DNA from: Planctomyces sp.
Lineage (GTDB): Bacteria; Planctomycetota; Planctomycetia; Planctomycetales; Planctomycetaceae
DNA: 64,000 bases
Reading direction: 5' to 3'
Assembly: GCA_016795105.1 (NCBI GenBank)
Contig: JAEUIH010000001.1
Coordinates: 62,001-126,000, forward strand
Notes under the pieces: model-generated
Database searches by the model: none
What the model saw: the letters and a program-made list of their open reading frames with translations, nothing else
Told to the model about the DNA's origin: nothing
In this document: positions 5,069 to 61,951 of the stretch, in pieces
Layout of the letters: each line of letters begins with the position of its first letter
Position numbering within the stretch: position 1 is the stretch's first letter
Position numbers and translations under genes: made by a program

Positions 5069-6291
5069 AAACACCTTCACCGGAGGCATGTTCAAAGCCG
5101 TCAACCGGCGAGCTTCCTGATCGAGACCTGCTGACCAGTTGTGTACACTGCGGGTTTTGTCTCGAAGTCTGCCCGACGTTCAAATTGACGGGAGATGAAA
5201 ACAATTCCCCTCGAGGTCGTTTGCGTCTTTGGCGACAGGAAGCCGAAGGAAAGCTGGAACCGGATTCATGGACCGACTTCTATACTGCAGAGTGCGTCGG
5301 ATGTCTGGCCTGTGAAACCGCATGCCCCGCGAATGTTCCTTATGGCAGGATCTTTGAGCATGTGCGTCATGATCATGTTGCCGGTGGACGAGCAAAACCA
5401 ACGACTGTAGTTCGAATTGCGGCGACACTGATAAAGTCTCCTCGCCTGATGAATCTGGTGACGCTCCCACTTCGAGTCCTGCGGCGAACCGGTCTCCTGA
5501 AGCATCGCCTGATGTTCTCGGGAGCTCCGGCTGTTTTGAAGTCCACTTCGGACTACGCTGCGGAACTTGTTCGTAACCATCGCCCCACTGGTCCAACAGT
5601 CATGCTGCAGACGGGCTGCCTCATGGAAGCCATGTTTCGTGAGATTAACTTCGCCACGGTTCGGGTTCTGATCGAACACAATGTGCGCGTTCTGGTTCCT
5701 CAGAATCAACCTTGCTGTGGAGCATTTATCGAACATTCAGGTTTGCCTGGACTCGAGCAGCTTCGACAGCAGCACCCGGACGTGTATATGGGTCATTCGA
5801 TCGATGCAGTGCTCACGAATTCATCGGGCTGTGGCTATTCGCTGGCGAAGTCAATTGGTGACCGAGTCCCAGTGCGGGATGTCCTGAGCTTTCTCTCAGA
5901 GCTTCCTCTGAGAACAAAGCCAAAGGTGTCTTCAGACACTGTGGTGTATGTCGATCAGCCGTGCCATATGATCCATGGAATGAAGACAGGCGGAATTCCA
6001 TCGCGTGTCCTTGATGCAACCGGCTACAACTGGAAATTCGCGCCCCATGCCACCGACTGCTGTGGTTCCGGTGGCACTTACAATATCGAGAAGCCAGAGA
6101 ATTCGAAGGAAATCCTGAAGCGAAAATCGGCGTTCTTAAACGACCTCAAAGAACGGCAGGTGATCCTCGCAACGGCCAACCATGTGTGCATGATGCAGTG
6201 GAGTTCCGCTCGAGCAATGGGACTGGTGAATCGCGACTATCAGGTCCGCCATGTGATTCAGCTGCTGGACCCGAGTACCACCCTGAAATAG
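5065..6291 (+). CDS. glcF: Glycolate oxidase iron-sulfur subunit
   Basis: This 408-residue protein should carry electrons from the flavin subunits. Two 4Fe-4S ligand sets are visible: CVHCGFCLEVCP (Cys 26, 29, 32, 36) and CVGCLACETACP (Cys 77, 80, 83, 87). Two CCG domains follow, marked by QPCCGAFIEHSG and TDCCGSGGTYN, as in GlcF and heterodisulfide reductase-type subunits. It is the last gene of the glcDEF operon, with an ATGA overlap to glcE. No membrane helix is apparent, so it is probably peripheral at the inner face of the membrane. Family assignment is firm; the exact 2-hydroxy acid is inferred. Confidence 0.92.
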   Translation: MKTPSPEACSKPSTGELPDRDLLTSCVHCGFCLEVCPTFKLTGDENNSPRGRLRLWRQEAEGKLEPDSWTDFYTAECVGCLACETACPANVPYGRIFEHVRHDHVAGGRAKPTTVVRIAATLIKSPRLMNLVTLPLRVLRRTGLLKHRLMFSGAPAVLKSTSDYAAELVRNHRPTGPTVMLQTGCLMEAMFREINFATVRVLIEHNVRVLVPQNQPCCGAFIEHSGLPGLEQLRQQHPDVYMGHSIDAVLTNSSGCGYSLAKSIGDRVPVRDVLSFLSELPLRTKPKVSSDTVVYVDQPCHMIHGMKTGGIPSRVLDATGYNWKFAPHATDCCGSGGTYNIEKPENSKEILKRKSAFLNDLKERQVILATANHVCMMQWSSARAMGLVNRDYQVRHVIQLLDPSTTLK

Positions 6292-22420: not shown

Positions 22421-23668
22421 ATGCAGATCTTGACCGGGCTGATGATTCTCATTCTGAGTTGTATCGGCCATTCTGAGCTTTGGGTAATTGTTGTGAACCG
22501 CTTCTACGGGATGCGGATTCGACATTCGAGATTGCGTGCTCTGCGGCATGTGCACGATGTTTGTGTACTTCTGTATCCGCCCTGCCTGTTTGTTGGGTCG
22601 CTTATTTCCGAGCATGGACTTTTGCAAGGCGGAACGTTTGATCAACAGCCTGCATTTGTGCAGATCTGGATCTCCGGAACACTCGTCGGTTTGATCCCGT
22701 TTACACTGGGAGTGATCCGCTGGCATCTCATCCAGAAAGAATCCTTTCTCCGAAAGGATTCGGCACAGCATTACCACCTGAAAGCGGAGGCTCAGCGAAG
22801 GCCGGAGCTTGGCGAAATTGAGGGGCCTCGCAAGCACTTTGCGAAATCACTGCCGTTCAGTGAGACATTTCAACTGGAAGTGAATCGGAAGTCGATTCCG
22901 CTTGCATTTCGTCCAGAGCGGATTGCGAAAGCCGACAGTCTTCCAACTGCCAATGAGCTTCGAATCCTGCATCTGTCAGACCTGCACTTCATTGGATGTC
23001 CGGGTGAAGGCTACTATCGATTCGTTGTTGAGAAGGCGCTGGAACAGAATGCTGACCTCTGCATTTTTGCCGGCGACTTGATTGATGAACCAGCCATGAT
23101 TCCGGATGCCGTTCGCCTTCTCAAACCACTGACAGAGACGATGCCCTGTTTCTTCGTGCTTGGGAACCATGACTGGCGGTATGATCCCGAAGAGATTCGA
23201 AGTGCGATGGTTGCTGGTGGCTGGCAGGTCCTTGGCCAGGATCCGAAGCATATGAACATTCGCGGCTGGCAGCTTCATTTGGAAGGAAGCGAACTTCCAT
23301 GGATGGGGGATCGATATACGAATCCTCGCGAGGATCTTCACACGCCCTTTCCCCAATCCTCGAATGAGCAACCCAGACCGGTGCGAATTCTTGTCAGTCA
23401 TACACCGGATCAGCACCGATTTGCTGTTCGGAAAGGATTTGATCTGATGCTGACAGGACATACCCACGGAGGCCAAATCCTGTTGCCGCTGATTGGCCCG
23501 GTTTATTCACCAAGCATCTATGGCGTAAGATACGCGTCAGGGCTTTTTGAAATCGGCGATTTGTTTCTACATGTTTCCAGAGGCATCGGCGGTAAAGATC
23601 CGCTTCGCTGGCGATGCCCTCCGGAACTGACCTGTCTTCATCTTGTCAGCAATTCTCCAGTCAATTGA
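22421..23668 (+). CDS. Membrane-anchored metallophosphoesterase
   Basis: This 415-residue protein has N-terminal hydrophobic segments (about 1-25, 45-65 and 80-100), a linker, and a calcineurin-like phosphoesterase domain from about 178. The metal-binding motifs are LHLSDLHF (Asp187, His189), FAGDLID, LGNHDWRYD and GHTHGGQ. This is the YkuE/YaeI arrangement, whose members act on lipid head groups or other phosphoesters near the membrane. Substrate is not deducible. Its stop lies 15 bases from the convergent double-aldolase gene. Confidence 0.85.
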   Translation: MQILTGLMILILSCIGHSELWVIVVNRFYGMRIRHSRLRALRHVHDVCVLLYPPCLFVGSLISEHGLLQGGTFDQQPAFVQIWISGTLVGLIPFTLGVIRWHLIQKESFLRKDSAQHYHLKAEAQRRPELGEIEGPRKHFAKSLPFSETFQLEVNRKSIPLAFRPERIAKADSLPTANELRILHLSDLHFIGCPGEGYYRFVVEKALEQNADLCIFAGDLIDEPAMIPDAVRLLKPLTETMPCFFVLGNHDWRYDPEEIRSAMVAGGWQVLGQDPKHMNIRGWQLHLEGSELPWMGDRYTNPREDLHTPFPQSSNEQPRPVRILVSHTPDQHRFAVRKGFDLMLTGHTHGGQILLPLIGPVYSPSIYGVRYASGLFEIGDLFLHVSRGIGGKDPLRWRCPPELTCLHLVSNSPVN

Positions 23669-29716: not shown

Positions 29717-29745
29717 GCGGACGGCAGACGGAGTCTGCCTGCTAC
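29717..29745 (-). repeat. REP-like GTAG hairpin, copy 3
   Basis: On the minus strand: GTAGCA, arm GGCAGAC, loop TCC, arm GTCTGCC, GTCCGC. Perfect 7-bp stem. Its GTAG end is one base from the GTAG end of copy 4, forming an inverted pair. Confidence 0.9.
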
Positions 29746-29746
29746 A

Positions 29747-29775
29747 GTAGCAGGCACATTCCATGTGCCGTCCGC
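29747..29775 (+). repeat. REP-like GTAG hairpin, copy 4
   Basis: GTAGCA, arm GGCACAT, loop TCC, arm ATGTGCC, GTCCGC. Perfect 7-bp stem. Forms a back-to-back pair with copy 3. Confidence 0.9.
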
Positions 29776-34710: not shown

Positions 34711-34743
34711 CAAAAACGCCGAGCGGTTTTAATCGCTCGGCGT
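34711..34743 (-). terminator. Intrinsic terminator of the giant surface protein gene
   Basis: ACGCCGAGCG (34716-34725) and CGCTCGGCGT (34734-34743) form a perfect 10-bp GC-rich stem around an 8-base loop. On the minus strand the stem is followed by TTTTT. It lies about 70 bases past the stop at 34811. Confidence 0.88.
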
Positions 34744-54338: not shown

Positions 54339-57300
54339 CTACAGGCCGGAGGAGGTGAGGTGCCGGCGGAGCATGTAGCGGACATCGGATGGAATTGGAG
54401 CGGTCTGAATTTGGGGGCCTTCGTAGCGAGTTTCCCGGACCATCGAAGGATCGGCGAAATCGTAGCTTCGAAGTAGTCCCTGTTGAGTTACCCAAAGCAG
54501 CGTCGTATTTGGCGACCAACACGCAGCCCAGGTATCGTAACCGTCCGGTAAGGTGACGTTTGTGATTACGTTCTCCTTTCCGGGCGGATACCAGACGATG
54601 TCCGCCTGATTGATAGCGCGTCCGCCTGCTGGACGCCTCGAGACGACAAACCGAACCGCTTCACTGAACGTATACCGACCCGGGTTCATGGCAATCCGAG
54701 GTCGCGTCAAAGCGTCCGGATCTTTGGGAAGGACCTGCATTTTGATGTCACCACTTTTGATCGAACCGGTGACAGCCTTGTGCCATGTGCGGTTCGAGAG
54801 CAGCCTTGCCAGATTTTCGACGGCCTGCGGAGAAGTGTCCGCAAGAAACGCCTCTGCCTCTTCCGGCGTGGGAGAATTGCCAAACAGGTCAGAGATGACT
54901 CGAAACAAAACAACTTCGCGTTCTTTTGACTCGACGGGCAATGGTGTTTCACGCTGAATGCGTTCGGTGATGAACTTCAGCCACCAGTCGGCGTCGACCT
55001 TTTCATTGTGGTCTCCTGTCAGCACAATTGCACCAGGCTGGAAAACAACGGCATCATTCTGAGAGGCAAGAATCCATGATCCAACCCGAGTATTCGCCCA
55101 GTCTTCGAGCTCTTCGTCCTGCGGGCCAACTCCGATTCCAGGTGCGTTGACTTCACAGTATTCACCTGGATGCAGTCGATATGGCTCCGGGCGTCCAATC
55201 GTGGTCCAGTACGTGGACAATGTCTGTACTGACGCGCCTCCGGAGGTAATCGCTTTGTGTTCCGGCTGATGAAAACTACGAGTGACAAACATGACAGGCT
55301 CATCGCCGGAGTTGTGGAGTACAACTCGCGACTTTAACTTTGTGCCGAGCGGGTACTTTTCTGCACGCGGCTCAAAGATCCACGCCATTCGCAGCCCACC
55401 GGGGAGCTTTTCTCCCCAGTTCACATTCGCCAGTGAAGCAGGCAGTGGCTGACCTCGCTGCAGGGTATGCTCGCGAATGATGTCCATTGTCCGTTCCAGT
55501 GGAATCGTTGTCACCTCCGCTATGTCATCGAACAGCCTGACAACGTCGCTCTGATTCCAGTCGCCTGAGTGTTCGAATCGAACGACCAGCGGTCGCATCC
55601 TCTTCGCAGAGGGATCTCCAAACTCATCGCCCGAATTGATTCGAATGAACTCCTGTACCAGATCATGCAGCCGATTGATGAGTCCACCAGGGATTTGCCC
55701 GTTGAGTCTGGCGTGATCGACACAGTATCGAAACAGAGCCTGCCCTTCTTTGCTTGTCGGCATTGGCCCCTGAACTGCGATTGCACCGCGACTTAGGGGT
55801 GTTCTCAATTTACCTTTCCATGCACCTTCCGGCGCGTGAACGATGTTCAACACCATAGAAATTGCCTGTGTCGGCATCTTCAGAATACCTTCAGCCAGCA
55901 TGTCTCCCGTGTTGACGCCAGGCTCGCTCACCTTCTCCGTGTCGAACATATCGACGATGTGAGTTTCACGAGGCTGCAAGACCAGGTCTAACTTCGTCGA
56001 CTTTGCGTTTTGCAGGGCGAACATAATTTCGTCGTTCCTGTACAGGTATAACTTTCTTCCTTCAACATCTGCGGCAGGAGTATCAGTCTCATCAATTGCG
56101 GTGTCACAAAAACGAATCGGTTTGTCCGACACGTTCTGTATAACAATGTGAATCCGCCGTTCACGACCGATAACTCCATCTGCCGTGGTTTCGCGAATCA
56201 ACGAAGCAGCCCTCAGACCATCAACCGGTTCACTCCAGTCGAGGTGCTGCAGGAGGTCATCAGGGACACTTGATGGCTTCGCAGACTGCTCTGCGGTGTC
56301 CTCGTTCCTTTGAATCGTACTCAACTGAGGAGTATTCACCTGAGACAATGAAATTGTGCTGACGCTCCGAAATTTAGGGTGCTTTGACGTTTCCAGAATA
56401 TCCAGCAGAAGCGATGAGTCAGGGCCACGTCGCAAGACGCCCACAATATCCTGAACGTCAATGTTCTGCACTTCAGCGGAGCGTATCCACAGTCGGATTG
56501 AGTTGTCAGCCGGATACAGAATCCTGCCGAATCTGGTCTCAATGGACGGAGTACCCGTGCCATAATCTAAAGAACACAGGATGTCGTCTGTATTTTTTTC
56601 CGGAAACGTCAGTCGTACCCTCACATCGCCGGACTGACTTGCCCATGTACCGAACAACAACTCGTCGATCGGACGCACATCATGTGCCTTTTCAATCAGA
56701 ACTGAACCTCCCGCTTCGGAAGGCTGCCGAGGTTCCGTCGGCAGCGGCTTGAAGACTTTTTCGAAAACATGTCGAATTCCTTCCGGCATCTCGGCAGGTT
56801 TGTGATACCACGTGGTTGTTCTGATGTTCGACGGATCTGCGAAGTCAATTCGCCGCACACAGAAAGGGCTGTGAGGGCCAGCGCCTTCATCACTCAGATT
56901 GCCTCGCATCGTCCAGAAGCTCAGAGAATTACTCTCCCACGCAACATGCCACGGCTCGCGGTTGCCAAAAGCATCTGACGCAACAAAGCTGCTAAATGCA
57001 TGAGTTGTTCCGGCCGTATCTTCCGGCCATGTGAGAACCACACTGGTTGTAACGTCTGCGGCATGAAACAGTTCACGCTTCACTTCCAGTGTCACGCCCC
57101 TGGGCATTTGCCATCGACCAGCCGTCTGCGCCGTCCAGATTTCAACTTTCTCTGGTGCGATGGCCTTGATTCTAAGGCTGTCCGTCTGAATGCTGACCGG
57201 TGACGACTGAGGATCCGATAAGGTGAGTGCGGGAAGAATGCCTGTCACATAGATCTCAGATCCGTGTTGAACTTTGGGTAGTTCAATCAGGGAATACCAT

Positions 57301-59309
57301 TCCGGGTAGCCCTCCGCTTCCCGAGGTCCTCCCGATCCGACTCGAATGCGATAACCATAGACAACTGCTGTTTCACCCGGACGCAACTGCCACAATTTCG
57401 TGAATCGAATGTCTTTCAGCATCCGGGACTGCCGGCCGAATTCCGTTGAAATGCGGCGACCATCCTGATCGATCGTTTCCAGCTGCAGCGACGGATACAA
57501 GCCCGGTCCGGTTCGGCCGATACCGACTGTCAGTGTTTCGCTTCCAGTATTCCACAACTGAAGATCAAGTCGAGCGCTGTCACCCAGAATGAAGGTCTCC
57601 TTCTCACAGACCAGGGCAACTCGCAGTCCACTGGGATCAGGAGGACCAAAGGCAAGTCGTTCGAGTTCTTCTGAATCTCCGGGCGACCCAGGCCATGGCG
57701 ACTCATTGAACGCCATCTGAATCGGTTCGCCATGAATTGCGAAAACTGCTTTGATAAAATCTTGAGCCTCAGAAACGGAATACATCGCTTTCCCGGCATC
57801 GGAGGCCTGAAGCCTCTTCAATTCTGTGATCTGTTCCGTCGTCAACGAAAACGGGGATTCATCAATGCCTTCAATAAAGCGGCCAATCGCTGACCTCAAA
57901 CCTGCGACGCGAGACTCGGAAACTGAATCCGCGGAATCCCCCAAGTGCAGCCAGCGTGTGAGCAGTGCAGCGTCCATGTCACGGTAAGCCCATGGATCAA
58001 GCGGCTGTTTCTGGACGGAGTTCTCGTTGTTGGATTCTTTCCCCGCTTCAACGACCACTGCTGTCTCGTCGGCAACACTCATCATTGCGACTGGGACTGC
58101 AAATGCAGTGCTGGCGACAACCGACAACGCGAACAAGATCGTTGTAACATTCCTGCGATTCTGACGAGCATTCAAAACGGCACTCAACCGACCATGCAAT
58201 GGCGAATTCCCGGCCATTGCCAGACCACAAGCCTGCGTCCATGGAGAGCAGGTGAATCGAGTTGCAACACTCAACAGGTGCTCCGCGTATGCTGATGCAC
58301 GAACACCGCTGGCCAGCACTCGGTCGTCACATGCTCGTTCGCGTTCAATGTGCAGTCGCCACGCAGCGAACCAAACCAGCGGATTGAACCAGTACAAAGC
58401 GCATGCGGCCTGTGTCAGTGCCAGAACCGCGAGATCCCCGCGCTGCACATGGGCCAGCTCGTGCAGCAATACTGACTGCAGCTGTTCAGCATTCCATCGA
58501 GTCGCTTCGAAAGGCAACTGAAGGCGAGCCTTCCAGAGGCCCCATACGATCGGAATCGATCGGTGCGGGTCAAGCAACAACTGCACCGAGCGTTTCAGTC
58601 CTAACGTTGCCCTGGCGCTCTCAAGAGCGGCCTGGAGATTTGCCAAATCCGAAAGATGCTGACTATGGAATTGTGTTTCAACCTGACTCTGAGCCGGAAG
58701 GGCTCCTTTTCCGTTGTCCGGCATCACAGGATATGATCGCCTTGCAGAGCGTCGCAGAAAAGCAGACGCAGCCAACAACCGTGCGGTCAGCACGAAGCAA
58801 CCGACAAACCAGATTCCACTCAACCATGCCGACCACGAAATCAGCGGCTCATGACTTTCGTTCGGCCCCTGATGTGCGGTGACTGTTTCAACTGGATCAG
58901 TCGTACGCGGAGCGCCTTCTGCAGTTTGTTCCATTACGCCTGCTGGAACACCTTCAACAATTGTCGACTCCAATTCCACGACCGGTGTCCTGTCATCGGT
59001 TATTGACTGTACCGGCATCACGGAAAGTACGGGCGTAGGACTGACATTAAGGGCGGCACGAGGCTCCGACTGGAGCCACGATGGGAGGATCCGCCACGTC
59101 GGCAGCACAAGCGACAACAATGGCATCGCAAGTAAAACACTGATCGCAATCGTCCAGACAAAATGACGAGTCGCTGCGGAATCACGCCGCAACATTGCAC
59201 AGATGGAAGCTGCCAGAAGGAGAACCAGAGTCCCCTTAATGGCTGAGTCGACGAGCGGAAAGACTACGAAGCCACCAGCTGCCAGCAGAAGAGAGTTCAA
59301 TCGATTCAT
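54339..59309 (-). CDS. Very large M56 (BlaR1/MecR1-like) membrane peptidase
   Basis: This 1656-residue protein, two to three times BlaR1 size, has an N-terminal half matching M56 peptidases. Membrane helices lie at about 15-40, 48-70, 160-183 and 389-410. The zinc site HELAH is at 283-287 with a downstream ERERACDD. In BlaR1 systems this domain cleaves the BlaI repressor after a ligand is sensed outside. Here the C-terminal 1240 residues contain no penicillin-binding motif (no S-x-x-K/SxN/KTG set). They hold three related modules, each opening with a GLR-A element (DPSGLRVALV, PVDGLRAASL, PGGLRMAWI). It begins one base after the BlaI stop, so the pair is an operon. Confidence 0.88.
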   Translation of the reverse strand: MNRLNSLLLAAGGFVVFPLVDSAIKGTLVLLLAASICAMLRRDSAATRHFVWTIAISVLLAMPLLSLVLPTWRILPSWLQSEPRAALNVSPTPVLSVMPVQSITDDRTPVVELESTIVEGVPAGVMEQTAEGAPRTTDPVETVTAHQGPNESHEPLISWSAWLSGIWFVGCFVLTARLLAASAFLRRSARRSYPVMPDNGKGALPAQSQVETQFHSQHLSDLANLQAALESARATLGLKRSVQLLLDPHRSIPIVWGLWKARLQLPFEATRWNAEQLQSVLLHELAHVQRGDLAVLALTQAACALYWFNPLVWFAAWRLHIERERACDDRVLASGVRASAYAEHLLSVATRFTCSPWTQACGLAMAGNSPLHGRLSAVLNARQNRRNVTTILFALSVVASTAFAVPVAMMSVADETAVVVEAGKESNNENSVQKQPLDPWAYRDMDAALLTRWLHLGDSADSVSESRVAGLRSAIGRFIEGIDESPFSLTTEQITELKRLQASDAGKAMYSVSEAQDFIKAVFAIHGEPIQMAFNESPWPGSPGDSEELERLAFGPPDPSGLRVALVCEKETFILGDSARLDLQLWNTGSETLTVGIGRTGPGLYPSLQLETIDQDGRRISTEFGRQSRMLKDIRFTKLWQLRPGETAVVYGYRIRVGSGGPREAEGYPEWYSLIELPKVQHGSEIYVTGILPALTLSDPQSSPVSIQTDSLRIKAIAPEKVEIWTAQTAGRWQMPRGVTLEVKRELFHAADVTTSVVLTWPEDTAGTTHAFSSFVASDAFGNREPWHVAWESNSLSFWTMRGNLSDEGAGPHSPFCVRRIDFADPSNIRTTTWYHKPAEMPEGIRHVFEKVFKPLPTEPRQPSEAGGSVLIEKAHDVRPIDELLFGTWASQSGDVRVRLTFPEKNTDDILCSLDYGTGTPSIETRFGRILYPADNSIRLWIRSAEVQNIDVQDIVGVLRRGPDSSLLLDILETSKHPKFRSVSTISLSQVNTPQLSTIQRNEDTAEQSAKPSSVPDDLLQHLDWSEPVDGLRAASLIRETTADGVIGRERRIHIVIQNVSDKPIRFCDTAIDETDTPAADVEGRKLYLYRNDEIMFALQNAKSTKLDLVLQPRETHIVDMFDTEKVSEPGVNTGDMLAEGILKMPTQAISMVLNIVHAPEGAWKGKLRTPLSRGAIAVQGPMPTSKEGQALFRYCVDHARLNGQIPGGLINRLHDLVQEFIRINSGDEFGDPSAKRMRPLVVRFEHSGDWNQSDVVRLFDDIAEVTTIPLERTMDIIREHTLQRGQPLPASLANVNWGEKLPGGLRMAWIFEPRAEKYPLGTKLKSRVVLHNSGDEPVMFVTRSFHQPEHKAITSGGASVQTLSTYWTTIGRPEPYRLHPGEYCEVNAPGIGVGPQDEELEDWANTRVGSWILASQNDAVVFQPGAIVLTGDHNEKVDADWWLKFITERIQRETPLPVESKEREVVLFRVISDLFGNSPTPEEAEAFLADTSPQAVENLARLLSNRTWHKAVTGSIKSGDIKMQVLPKDPDALTRPRIAMNPGRYTFSEAVRFVVSRRPAGGRAINQADIVWYPPGKENVITNVTLPDGYDTWAACWSPNTTLLWVTQQGLLRSYDFADPSMVRETRYEGPQIQTAPIPSDVRYMLRRHLTSSGL

Positions 59310-59310
59310 C

Positions 59311-59694
59311 TCAGCGTCCCTCCTTCCGGGCTTGTTCGATCAGCGCAATCAGTCGTTCACGTTCTTCATCAGTGACGCTGTCTCTCCGGGAATGCAGATG
59401 GGCGGCGAGCGCTTCTTCAAGCGAACCGCCGAAGAATGTTTCCAGGACATTCTGAAACGCGCTGCGACCGGCTTTCACCTTCGTCTCGCGCGGAGAGTAC
59501 ACCACTTCGCGGCCGTTTTCGCGGCGTTTGAGGTGTCCCTTCTCTTCCAGGATGTGCATCATCCGCCGCACTGCCATTGCCGTTGGCGCATCGGGAATCG
59601 CGTCGACAACCTGATTGACGGTCGCTTCGCCCAGAGCAAAGACGGCATCCATAATCTGCCGCTCGCGCCTGCTGAGATCGGGGGGTTTTGACAT
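59311..59694 (-). CDS. BlaI/MecI-family transcriptional repressor
   Basis: This 127-residue winged-helix protein has SRRERQIMDAVFALGEATVN and the recognition helix TAMAVRRMMHILEEKGHL, followed by a dimerisation helix region (SAFQNVLETFFGGSLEEAL). The M56 partner should cleave it near its middle. It forms a tight pair with the downstream peptidase gene (stop to start in one base). Its promoter region holds palindromic sites (59728-59749 and 59784-59800), which fits auto-repression. Targets outside the pair are unknown. Confidence 0.93.
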   Translation of the reverse strand: MSKPPDLSRRERQIMDAVFALGEATVNQVVDAIPDAPTAMAVRRMMHILEEKGHLKRRENGREVVYSPRETKVKAGRSAFQNVLETFFGGSLEEALAAHLHSRRDSVTDEERERLIALIEQARKEGR

Positions 59695-59727
59695 CGCAAA
59701 TTCTCCTGCTTTCCATAGTTCAGTCCA

Positions 59728-59749
59728 GTGCGTTAAATTATTAACGCAC
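59728..59749. promoter_or_regulatory. Likely BlaI operator (primary palindrome)
   Basis: GTGCGTTAA, spacer ATTA, then TTAACGCAC form a perfect 9-base inverted repeat 34 bases upstream of the BlaI start. Size and symmetry suit a dimeric winged-helix repressor. Function is inferred from position. Confidence 0.72.
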
Positions 59750-59783
59750 TAAACAGCTGGAAGCAAGAGCTGTCCGCTACTTT

Positions 59784-59810
59784 TTTAACGCTTCGCTAAA
59801 TTTTTAACGA
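59784..59810. promoter_or_regulatory. Second operator-like site and half site
   Basis: TTTAACG, spacer CTT, CGCTAAA is an inverted repeat with one mismatch; TTTTTAACGA beside it (59801-59810) is a half site. All share the TTAACG core of the primary palindrome. Confidence 0.55.
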
Positions 59811-59850: not shown

Positions 59851-61770
59851 CTATTTCAGGACTTCCGCCCTCAGCTCGTTGTAGCTCTTTTCGAATTCTG
59901 AGACTGAAGTGGGATGCCAGAAGTCGTTGACGCTTCTGAAACTCCACCGTGTCTTCAGATCCTGAGCATCTGCCTGAGTCATTTGTGCTTTGCTGGTCAG
60001 AACCCACTCCCTAACGTGTTTTGCATTCGGATCGCCGGACTGTTGAGCATAGACGGCAAGCACAATTCTGCGAGCCATATCCCAGCTCGCAACACCCCGC
60101 TGGGCAGATTCTCGTTCGATGAGCCGCTGAAGTGAGTCATTCAGCAGCTTTGACTGATCCGTTGTCAGCGTGGCCTTCTGCAGCTCTTTCAGCCGTGAAA
60201 TTGAGAAGCCTCTGCCAATGTCGCCGATGCGACTGACTGCTGCATTCCATGCGGGATGCTTTGTGTCGGACGCGACCTGATGGAGCTTCAGCAGGACCCC
60301 GGGATGATTGTGGTACGAAAATGCCATAAGCGCAGATTCACGAATTCCAGCAGACTCTTTCGAATCATCTGCAACTCTCGCGAAGTCATCAAAACGCTCA
60401 AGCGACGGAGTTGAGGGAAGGATATAGGTGTGAGCCAGGAAAGCAGTTTGGCGAATCGTCTCGTTGGAATGTGCCGTAAGTTGTCGAACGTGATTGAGCA
60501 ATTCAGGATTGCGCCGCCCACTGACAGCAACTCCATTGATTTCGCGGACAATCTGGTGAACATAGACCGCTTCCGGTTGAGCCTGCTTTCGATCAGCGAA
60601 ATCAACGACACTGCCTGATTTCGCGAGGTGACTGAACACGTCAACGACCTGCAATGGTGGCAAGTATTTTCCGGAGTCCATCGGAGGGACATCGTCACTC
60701 TTAAACCCTTCGTAAATCTGCGAGATCATTCCTTCCCACGGTTCGATCTTCTCTTTATGAGTATCCAGCCAGTGTTCCGCGACGCCGGGGGCAGACGTCA
60801 ACAGTGAGGTGGCCTGCTGTTCTCCGTGCCCCAGATAGAACGGTCCTGTCGTGTGCCACGCAACGACTCGGATCCATTGCGGAGAGTCCGAGCTCTTTAG
60901 CGCATCTGCAACTCCGTGACTTTTGAACGCGTCGGGAACATAGATTGCCATCCATTCCAGAAGTTGAAACTCCTTCTTCTGCTTAAGGAAATCAACCCAC
61001 GCCGAAATCTTTGCAGGTTCTGATGCGATCTGAGTCGACAAAAAGACCCATTTGGCTTCAAGATCTCGAGCATTCCATTCTATGTCTGAAACAGGGGGGA
61101 CTGATTTCTGAATTGAAGCAAGAAGAACACGCAATCTGCTTCCGGCACTCTCAGGGGCCAGCATGTCTGCCAGAAAGGAATGCCCTCCGGCGCTCTGAAC
61201 TTCCAACCCCTCAACGTGTCCGTCAACAATGTTATAAATGCAGCGTAGTCGAGCCCGTCCGTTGACAATGACCACAGTCTTTCTGCGGCCCGATGACTGC
61301 GTTTGGGGATCAATGATTAACTCAAGCGGATATTCGTCGAGAGTCTGAGCAAGAAAGTTAATACGACCGGTCGGAAGCAGTCGTCGCTCTGGAATCGCGC
61401 CGGACCTGCCGTTCAGTATTCGTCCCGTAACCGACTGACCATTCTCGAATTCTGTAATGATCTCAACTTTGTGCTGTCCCGCCAGAATCAACTCCAGCTC
61501 CTCTGCCGTATAACGATTCGCACCACGAATACCTCTGAACCCGGCGATTGGCTCTACGTTAGGGCCAAGAGCCGAGACGGTAATCTTCAGATTCTGTTCG
61601 TGCGTTGGCTCAACGTCGAATCGTAAATCGGCAAGTGGTCTGCGATCGTCATCATCAAGATAGTCGTGCTGCTCCTGGAATTCGGCCTGCTGCGTCGCCT
61701 GAACACATACCCCGGAAAAAGCGAAGCCGCTCACGGCAAGTGCTGCCCCGATCATCAACCATCTTGACAT
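59851..61770 (-). CDS. Secreted helical-repeat protein, unknown function
   Basis: ATG 61770 follows AGGGAGA and opens a signal peptide (MSRWLMIGAALAVSG, core to about residue 25), giving 639 residues. The N-terminal 230 residues are mixed alpha/beta with FRGIRGANRYTAEEL. The rest is helical with loosely repeating segments such as HSNETIRQTAFLAHTYIL and SAGIRESALMAFSYHNHPG, suggesting HEAT-like repeats. It lies upstream of the BlaI/M56 pair on the same strand, but the operator sites between them suggest separate transcription. It could still be functionally linked. No catalytic motif is seen. Confidence 0.78.
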   Translation of the reverse strand: MSRWLMIGAALAVSGFAFSGVCVQATQQAEFQEQHDYLDDDDRRPLADLRFDVEPTHEQNLKITVSALGPNVEPIAGFRGIRGANRYTAEELELILAGQHKVEIITEFENGQSVTGRILNGRSGAIPERRLLPTGRINFLAQTLDEYPLELIIDPQTQSSGRRKTVVIVNGRARLRCIYNIVDGHVEGLEVQSAGGHSFLADMLAPESAGSRLRVLLASIQKSVPPVSDIEWNARDLEAKWVFLSTQIASEPAKISAWVDFLKQKKEFQLLEWMAIYVPDAFKSHGVADALKSSDSPQWIRVVAWHTTGPFYLGHGEQQATSLLTSAPGVAEHWLDTHKEKIEPWEGMISQIYEGFKSDDVPPMDSGKYLPPLQVVDVFSHLAKSGSVVDFADRKQAQPEAVYVHQIVREINGVAVSGRRNPELLNHVRQLTAHSNETIRQTAFLAHTYILPSTPSLERFDDFARVADDSKESAGIRESALMAFSYHNHPGVLLKLHQVASDTKHPAWNAAVSRIGDIGRGFSISRLKELQKATLTTDQSKLLNDSLQRLIERESAQRGVASWDMARRIVLAVYAQQSGDPNAKHVREWVLTSKAQMTQADAQDLKTRWSFRSVNDFWHPTSVSEFEKSYNELRAEVLK

Positions 61771-61951
61771 CGTAAAGTCTCCCTTCGCACCCTGAATGTC
61801 TTCGCCAGTCCGGAATTGCACGTCTCAGGTACAACTCGACTTGTCAGCGTTCAAGTGTGATACGAAGTTTCAGAGTACTGAAACAGTTGGCGTCGTGGCG
61901 TATTACAAAGTTCTTACAAGGTTGATGCCGGAGATCCCAGGCAGGGCTGGC

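Follow-up and report, generated by a model that had tools for sequence, protein, structure and literature searches.

A paired CGYTAA-N4-TTARCG operator of fixed spacing that probably governs autoregulation of a BlaI-M56 operon in Planctomycetota

Operator sites before blaI

A cluster of palindromes was found directly before the gene of a BlaI-type repressor in the 64,000-nucleotide stretch of Planctomyces sp. DNA analyzed in this study (the window), and with a probability of roughly 0.8 we regard it as the autoregulatory operator of the operon formed by blaI and the adjoining M56 protease gene. The cluster is real and stronger than was described in the earlier note that first pointed to it. 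A 16-bp dyad, CGYTAA-N4-TTARCG, forms the conserved unit, and three copies of it (O1, O2 and O3, Table 1) occur ahead of the operon, all of them inside the 156-bp intergenic stretch before blaI. The view that the cluster represents a BlaI-type operator region is favored by its conservation in orthologous promoters and by the outer operator base, which varies with the DNA-reading residues of BlaI.

The three elements originally reported were a perfect inverted repeat with 9-base arms, a near-perfect palindrome and a half site. The perfect repeat is present and corresponds to O2, with arms of 10 bp instead of 9 (59727-59750, loop of 4), and the near-perfect palindrome was recovered as O3 (CGCTAAATTTTTAACG). 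The supposed half site turned out to be a full second operator, O1 (CGCTACTTTTTTAACG), with 11 of the 12 scored positions matched. It is this site that occupies the conserved operator position, the near-perfect palindrome being the extra one. The search pattern proposed earlier, GTGCGTTAA-N4-TTAACGCAC, is too long, as bases beyond the 6-bp half-sites pair no more often than column composition predicts.

Table 1. Features of the blaI-M56 operon and its upstream region, with positions in the window.
Feature	Position	Strand	Description
M56 (BlaR1-type) membrane metalloprotease	54339-59309	-	1656 aa, long C-terminal extension; starts 1 bp after blaI
M56 extension module, residues 1184-1656	54342-55760	-	has relatives among the extensions encoded by similar operons
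blaI	59311-59694	-	127 aa; Penicillinase_R family repressor
BlaI DNA-reading parts			predicted recognition helix, residues 39-51; predicted wing strands, residues 55-60 and 63-68 (AlphaFold2 model)
Operator O2	59731-59746	-	CGTTAATAATTTAACG on the minus strand; covers the putative -10
Putative -10, TAATAA	59738-59743	-	inside O2; inferred
Putative -35, TTGCTT	59761-59766	-	between O1 and O2; inferred
Operator O1	59775-59790	-	CGTTAAAAAAGTAGCG; upstream of O2, 44 bp start to start
Operator O3	59794-59809	-	CGTTAAAAATTTAGCG; extra site, 19 bp upstream of O1

Conservation of the paired sites

A total of 170 genomes of the family were searched and 134 of them encode a relative of the window BlaI. 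Besides the genome of the window, sixteen contain a BlaI orthologue at 76-93% protein identity. All sixteen orthologous promoters carry two dyads of at least 11/12 upstream of blaI, one of them at the position of O1. Among the seventeen promoters (our own included), the distance between the two dyads from start to start is 44 bp in fourteen, 43 bp in two and 45 bp in one. An O3-like extra site of at least 11/12 was found in none of the sixteen orthologous promoters, which makes O3 peculiar to its own genome among the seventeen.

When the two-site pattern was searched with a free gap of 15 to 45, it was found in thirteen of the 170 genomes, at one place in each, always at a blaI orthologue and with a gap of 27 or 28; four of the seventeen promoters are missed by this pattern owing to single changes. 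The reversed two-site control gave one place on one strand, and an off-spacing control in which each site was one base short gave none in the 170 genomes.

A wider scan of the genome_contigs collection covered at least 591 stretches, and the best 80 of 560 relatives were kept. Thirty-six loci of this set have an xMA[VI]RR recognition helix and enough upstream DNA, some of them belonging to genomes of the family search. A dyad pair at 41-45 bp was found in 31 of these 36 loci (best 80 of 560 relatives) and in none of 7200 shuffles, the spacing being 44 in eighteen loci, 43 in nine, 45 in two, and 42 and 41 in one each. Sixteen of the 36 loci drawn from the best 80 of 560 relatives are verrucomicrobial, and twelve of these have the dyad pair. 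The scored pair is absent from five loci (L115, L143, L145, L147 and L152). Two of them, L143 and L147, show one good dyad and, close to where the second would be expected, a remnant of one side, and L115, whose BlaI is 86% identical, has no such dyad in the 220 bp scanned upstream (of position 405). An operator of fixed spacing is thereby indicated in two phyla, Planctomycetota and Verrucomicrobiota, and we consider this spacing to be new.

Promoter architecture and proposed mechanism

The putative promoter of Table 1 was placed by the position of its hexamers relative to the dyads, because a strict sigma-70 scan of this stretch of the window found no promoter. In fifteen of the seventeen promoters, a TTGNNN hexamer lies between the dyads, 16-17 bp before a TA-rich hexamer in O2 (TAATAA, TAAAAT or TATATT). 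The exceptions are L031, which has TTC, and L026, in which neither a TTG nor a TTC hexamer occurs at the right distance. With this placement, O2 would lie on the -10 element and O1 just upstream of the -35 element, and since 44 bp is about four helical turns, O1 and O2 would be on the same face of the helix.

We propose a simple switch. One BlaI dimer would bind each 16-bp dyad, with O3 as a third site, and the occupied operators would exclude RNA polymerase and keep the operon low. An extracytoplasmic signal would lead the M56 protein to cleave or otherwise inactivate BlaI, which would free the promoter and allow joint synthesis of repressor and sensor.

Extent of the regulon

BlaI and its protease partner probably switch their own operon only, so that the transcriptional regulon might consist essentially of blaI-M56 alone. 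The genome scan suggested earlier gave the strict form, CGYTA-N6-TARCG, at three places in the 8.9-Mb genome, all before blaI; the motif is therefore not equally common everywhere, which would have spoken against an operator. The same pattern with other spacers matched five times (N5) and twice (N7) in the whole genome, all scattered, and the half-site frequencies seen in the window predict about three matches per spacing genome-wide. Reversed patterns gave 115, 80 and 110 matches, and since they are without the stop-codon-like words TAA and TAG, they do not represent a matched control. Spacers of 0 to 14 were compared in eighteen orthologue regions totaling 193197 bases, and all 34 pairings of the half-sites found there have the N6 spacer.

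The motif had been expected to lead to a wider regulon. This expectation was not borne out, as the strict form stands only before blaI and nearly all of the profile matches listed are at blaI promoters. The matches listed for seventeen genomes with a profile of 35 sites comprise 54 rows at E<=1, both strands counted, and 52 of these are at blaI promoters. The two others are located inside a sulfotransferase-like frame and 3' of a long frame.

With one mismatch allowed, CGTTAA-N4-TTAACG was found at ten places in the genome, namely O2, O3 and eight others. Five of the eight are in dispersed repeats, one is in a glycine-cleavage gene, another falls within a protease gene or at its end, and the last (L008, contig C188) precedes a likely start codon by roughly 50 bp. 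The five repeat copies among the ten places belong to GCAGAGACGCAGAG-type repeats of contigs C23 and C35 and were rejected as operators. These dispersed arrays (L003, 1200-1800, on C23 and L005, 1300-2130, on C35, one of them with a 164-base period) contain the operator look-alikes CGTTAAATTTTCAACG and CGTTAAATTTTTGACG.

Other genes might still be added to the regulon by weaker or single sites that strict patterns miss. The site at L008 would be a candidate of this kind, the profile search scored only the first 150 candidates in twelve of the seventeen genomes, and although CGYTA-N6-TARCG describes 33 of the 35 sites collected, all of them were picked by similarity. We consider a wider regulon unlikely: there is no other strict site in the genome, seven of the eight extra single-mismatch places are in repeats or inside or at the end of genes, and only two of the 54 listed profile rows are away from blaI promoters. 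Weak sites aside, a regulon of one operon is favored, as the strict and profile scans show no wider one. The question is thereby sharpened to the role of a sensor-repressor pair that seems to control itself alone.

The BlaI protein and operator recognition

The window BlaI matches PF03965 with 82 bits against a cut-off of 22.6. Its AlphaFold2 model has the winged-helix N-terminal domain of the family and the helical C-terminal part, the putative dimerization region, with a pLDDT of about 89-95 over residues 11-70 and lower values after, so that the C-terminal half is of low confidence. A PDB search with the single sequence gave nothing; the alignment-based search gave matches, and MecI and BlaI were matched by fold as well as by profile, among them the DNA complexes 1xsd, 1sax and 2d45. 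The best PDB matches of the fold search were MecI (1okr) and BlaI (1xsd).

Covariation was examined in 92 distinct BlaI proteins whose upstream DNA was available, and 80 of them have an NNYYAW-N4-WTRRNN dyad that was picked blind to the outer two bases. The outermost base is C in 72 of 76 half-sites of helix class A (xMA[VI]RR, the class of the window BlaI), T in 27 of 30 half-sites of class B (SYSAVR[AG]) and G in 20 of 34 half-sites of class C ([KRH][TS][AS]VR[TA]), and with the SxNAVRT helix C and A occur four times each. Helix class and outer base share 0.84 bits of mutual information (34 representatives below 70% identity), where shuffling gives 0.31 on average and none of 10000 shuffles was as high; the classes were defined with the data already in view, and the proteins are related, with kinship only thinned. 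A column scan free of classes (41 representatives) ranked residues 44, 39, 57, 63, 40 and 62 first for the outer base, all of which belong to the recognition helix or the wing of the model. At a 60% cut, residues 57, 39, 44 and 63 lead the scan, followed by L96 and H99 outside the DNA-binding part. There is thus an apparent protein-DNA code, new in our view, between helix and wing residues of BlaI and the outermost operator base. The residues and bases named here are those whose swap would probe the recognition code in the BlaI/MecI family.

Another operator type, CACCAA-N4-TTGGTG or AACCAA-N4-TTGGTT, was observed upstream of three loci (L160, L168 and L181) whose BlaI has an SxNA[VI]RT helix.

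Paralogues in the genome

Twelve PF03965 proteins (L011-L022) are encoded in the genome, and the assignment of the sites to the adjoining BlaI is drawn from sequence. A different regulator could therefore be imagined to bind them, which we consider very improbable. The sites travel with the clade of the window BlaI across two phyla, their outer base varies with its helix and wing residues, and the promoters of the other eleven paralogues have different half-sites or none that are obvious. Perfect 6-N4-6 dyads were found before L011 (AATTAC-GTAATT, TACA-type), L012 and L018 (TGGCAA-TTGCCA), L013 (TTTTAA-TTAAAA) and L019 (AGCGAA-TTCGCT), and L014 has a near-perfect TACA-type site. No perfect dyad was seen before L015, L016, L017, L020 and L021. 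These differing half-sites suggest that separate circuits may coexist in one cell.

Arg51 of MecI (counted on the printed chain) aligns with Ile48 of the window BlaI. An arginine at this position was considered as a simple key to TACA operators and the idea was dropped; L011 and L014 fit, and the arginine alone is insufficient because L016 keeps it without a visible TACA-type site.

We would also offer a generalization, with more doubt than belief. BlaI-type repressors might use one fixed 6-N4-6 frame whose outer bases are read by residues 39, 40, 44, 57, 62 and 63, so that the operator class could be told from the sequence of BlaI. Bacteria with a dozen BlaI-M56 pairs would then hold sealed, mutually orthogonal circuits, and the sensor protease, as the only transcriptional output here, would be the effector itself.

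Inverted repeats in the window

The palindromes might instead act as RNA hairpins, either as a terminator or as a leader structure, and O2 taken as RNA does fold at -20.1 kcal/mol (z -4.96). This reading is hardly credible, as pairing outside the half-sites (15, 12, 9 and 11 of 35) is close to the expected 14.7, 10.6, 7.9 and 9.6, and the inner pairs, with 8 and 6 of 35, fall below the expected 13.5 and 15.5. Neither a terminator-like match in this stretch of the window nor an Rfam match was found, and if the putative -10 is right, O2 would hardly be transcribed.

The three dyads of at least 11/12 in the intergenic stretch are the only ones in the window. Among 20000 first-order Markov shuffles of this stretch, 19905 had no site, 94 had one, one had two and none had three. 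A long inverted repeat alone is weaker evidence than the cluster of sites because the window holds eight perfect inverted repeats with arms of at least 9 and a loop of at most 8, against a mean of 2.7 and a largest value of 4 in 30 shuffles. Four of the eight have arms of at least 10 (shuffle mean 0.37). A chance cluster of AT-rich palindromes, for which this excess of long repeats might speak, is refuted by the shuffles, the N5 and N7 controls and the conservation. Further perfect inverted repeats with 10-bp arms are located at 22739-22761, 29736-29756 and 34716-34743.

Relation to known systems

In the parts of the Clostridium thermocellum study drawn on here (PMC8457756), BlaI_0696 and BlaI_1845 are described with two pairs of inverted repeats before their own operon, with self-regulation and with regulons of three and one operons. 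The half-sites there are GTCTAT or GACTAT, the repeats of BlaI_0696 are five nucleotides apart, and the sites were demonstrated by DAP-seq and EMSA. As far as those parts go, the two systems share the family, the paired sites, a small and here putative self-regulated regulon and a blaR1-type gene in the operon, whereas the word here is CGYTAA-N4-TTARCG and the operator is indicated by conservation.

Staphylococcal BlaR1 is stated to cleave BlaI directly (PMC9834060, PMC7253601), and the classical operator is given in the sections consulted as TACANNTGTA, of the TACA/TGTA type (PMC7253601). The staphylococcal BlaI/MecI-BlaR1/MecR1 systems, as presented there, resemble ours in a winged-helix repressor of the same fold that adjoins an M56 protease, but the TACA-NN-TGTA core that belongs to their operator was not found in ours. 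The CopR/CopY operator appears in the same source as 16 bases, RNYKACANNTGTMRNY (PMC7253601); by that account it has the overall length of our 6-N4-6 dyad but a different core sequence, and these repressors sense metal and have no M56 partner.

The BlaI family, paired sites and small autoregulons are thus already known; we regard as new the operator word, the constant distance between its copies and the apparent code that links protein and DNA. No description of a BlaI operator in Planctomycetota or Verrucomicrobiota was found in the literature searched, the looser matches being judged by titles and the starts of abstracts. The present analysis supplies an in-silico operator for the BlaI clade of these two phyla.

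The M56 partner

The M56 protein of the operon matches PF05569 with 115.5 bits and carries HELAH at residues 283-287, which gives it an M56 domain with the HExxH motif. A long frame with an M56-type N-terminus begins one base after blaI in nine of eighteen regions and within 30 bases on either side in four. In the remaining five, where the contig ends or a different frame was picked, a separate check showed an M56-type frame in two. A 656-aa frame in the same direction lies upstream of blaI (59851-61821); it has no Pfam match at E<=0.001 and was not seen as a conserved neighbor among the orthologue regions listed.

The extension of the M56 protein differs from BlaR1/MecR1 in that it has no penicillin-binding Pfam match. 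The Pfam search at E<=1, which covered the window protein together with four related ones, gave no such domain; the fold search covered residues 1184-1656, and its middling matches do not speak against a sensor domain of this kind. Partial Pfam matches to DUF1549 (PSCyt2) were observed in four of these five M56 proteins. The module at residues 1184-1656 is predicted to consist of helices and beta-sandwiches (mean pLDDT 86). Its fold search gave middling beta-sandwich matches, RbmA (4kkp) being the best with Z 7.1 over 110 residues at 5.0 A, and a match to an intracellular proteinase inhibitor (3isy) with Z 6.3. An identity with either protein was dropped as the matches are only middling.

Related C-terminal extensions were found in 35 of 98 loci (tblastn, E<=1e-5), several of which represent the same genome twice and six of which are verrucomicrobial. 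The stretch of L122 that aligns with the extension (5123-6229) contains two stop codons, owing to either a broken gene or an assembly error. The M56 frames of the operon range from 891 to 2662 aa (the window frame and L053-L070), and parts of the extension are repeated in several relatives (tblastn; L053, L054, L061, L063, L066 and L067).
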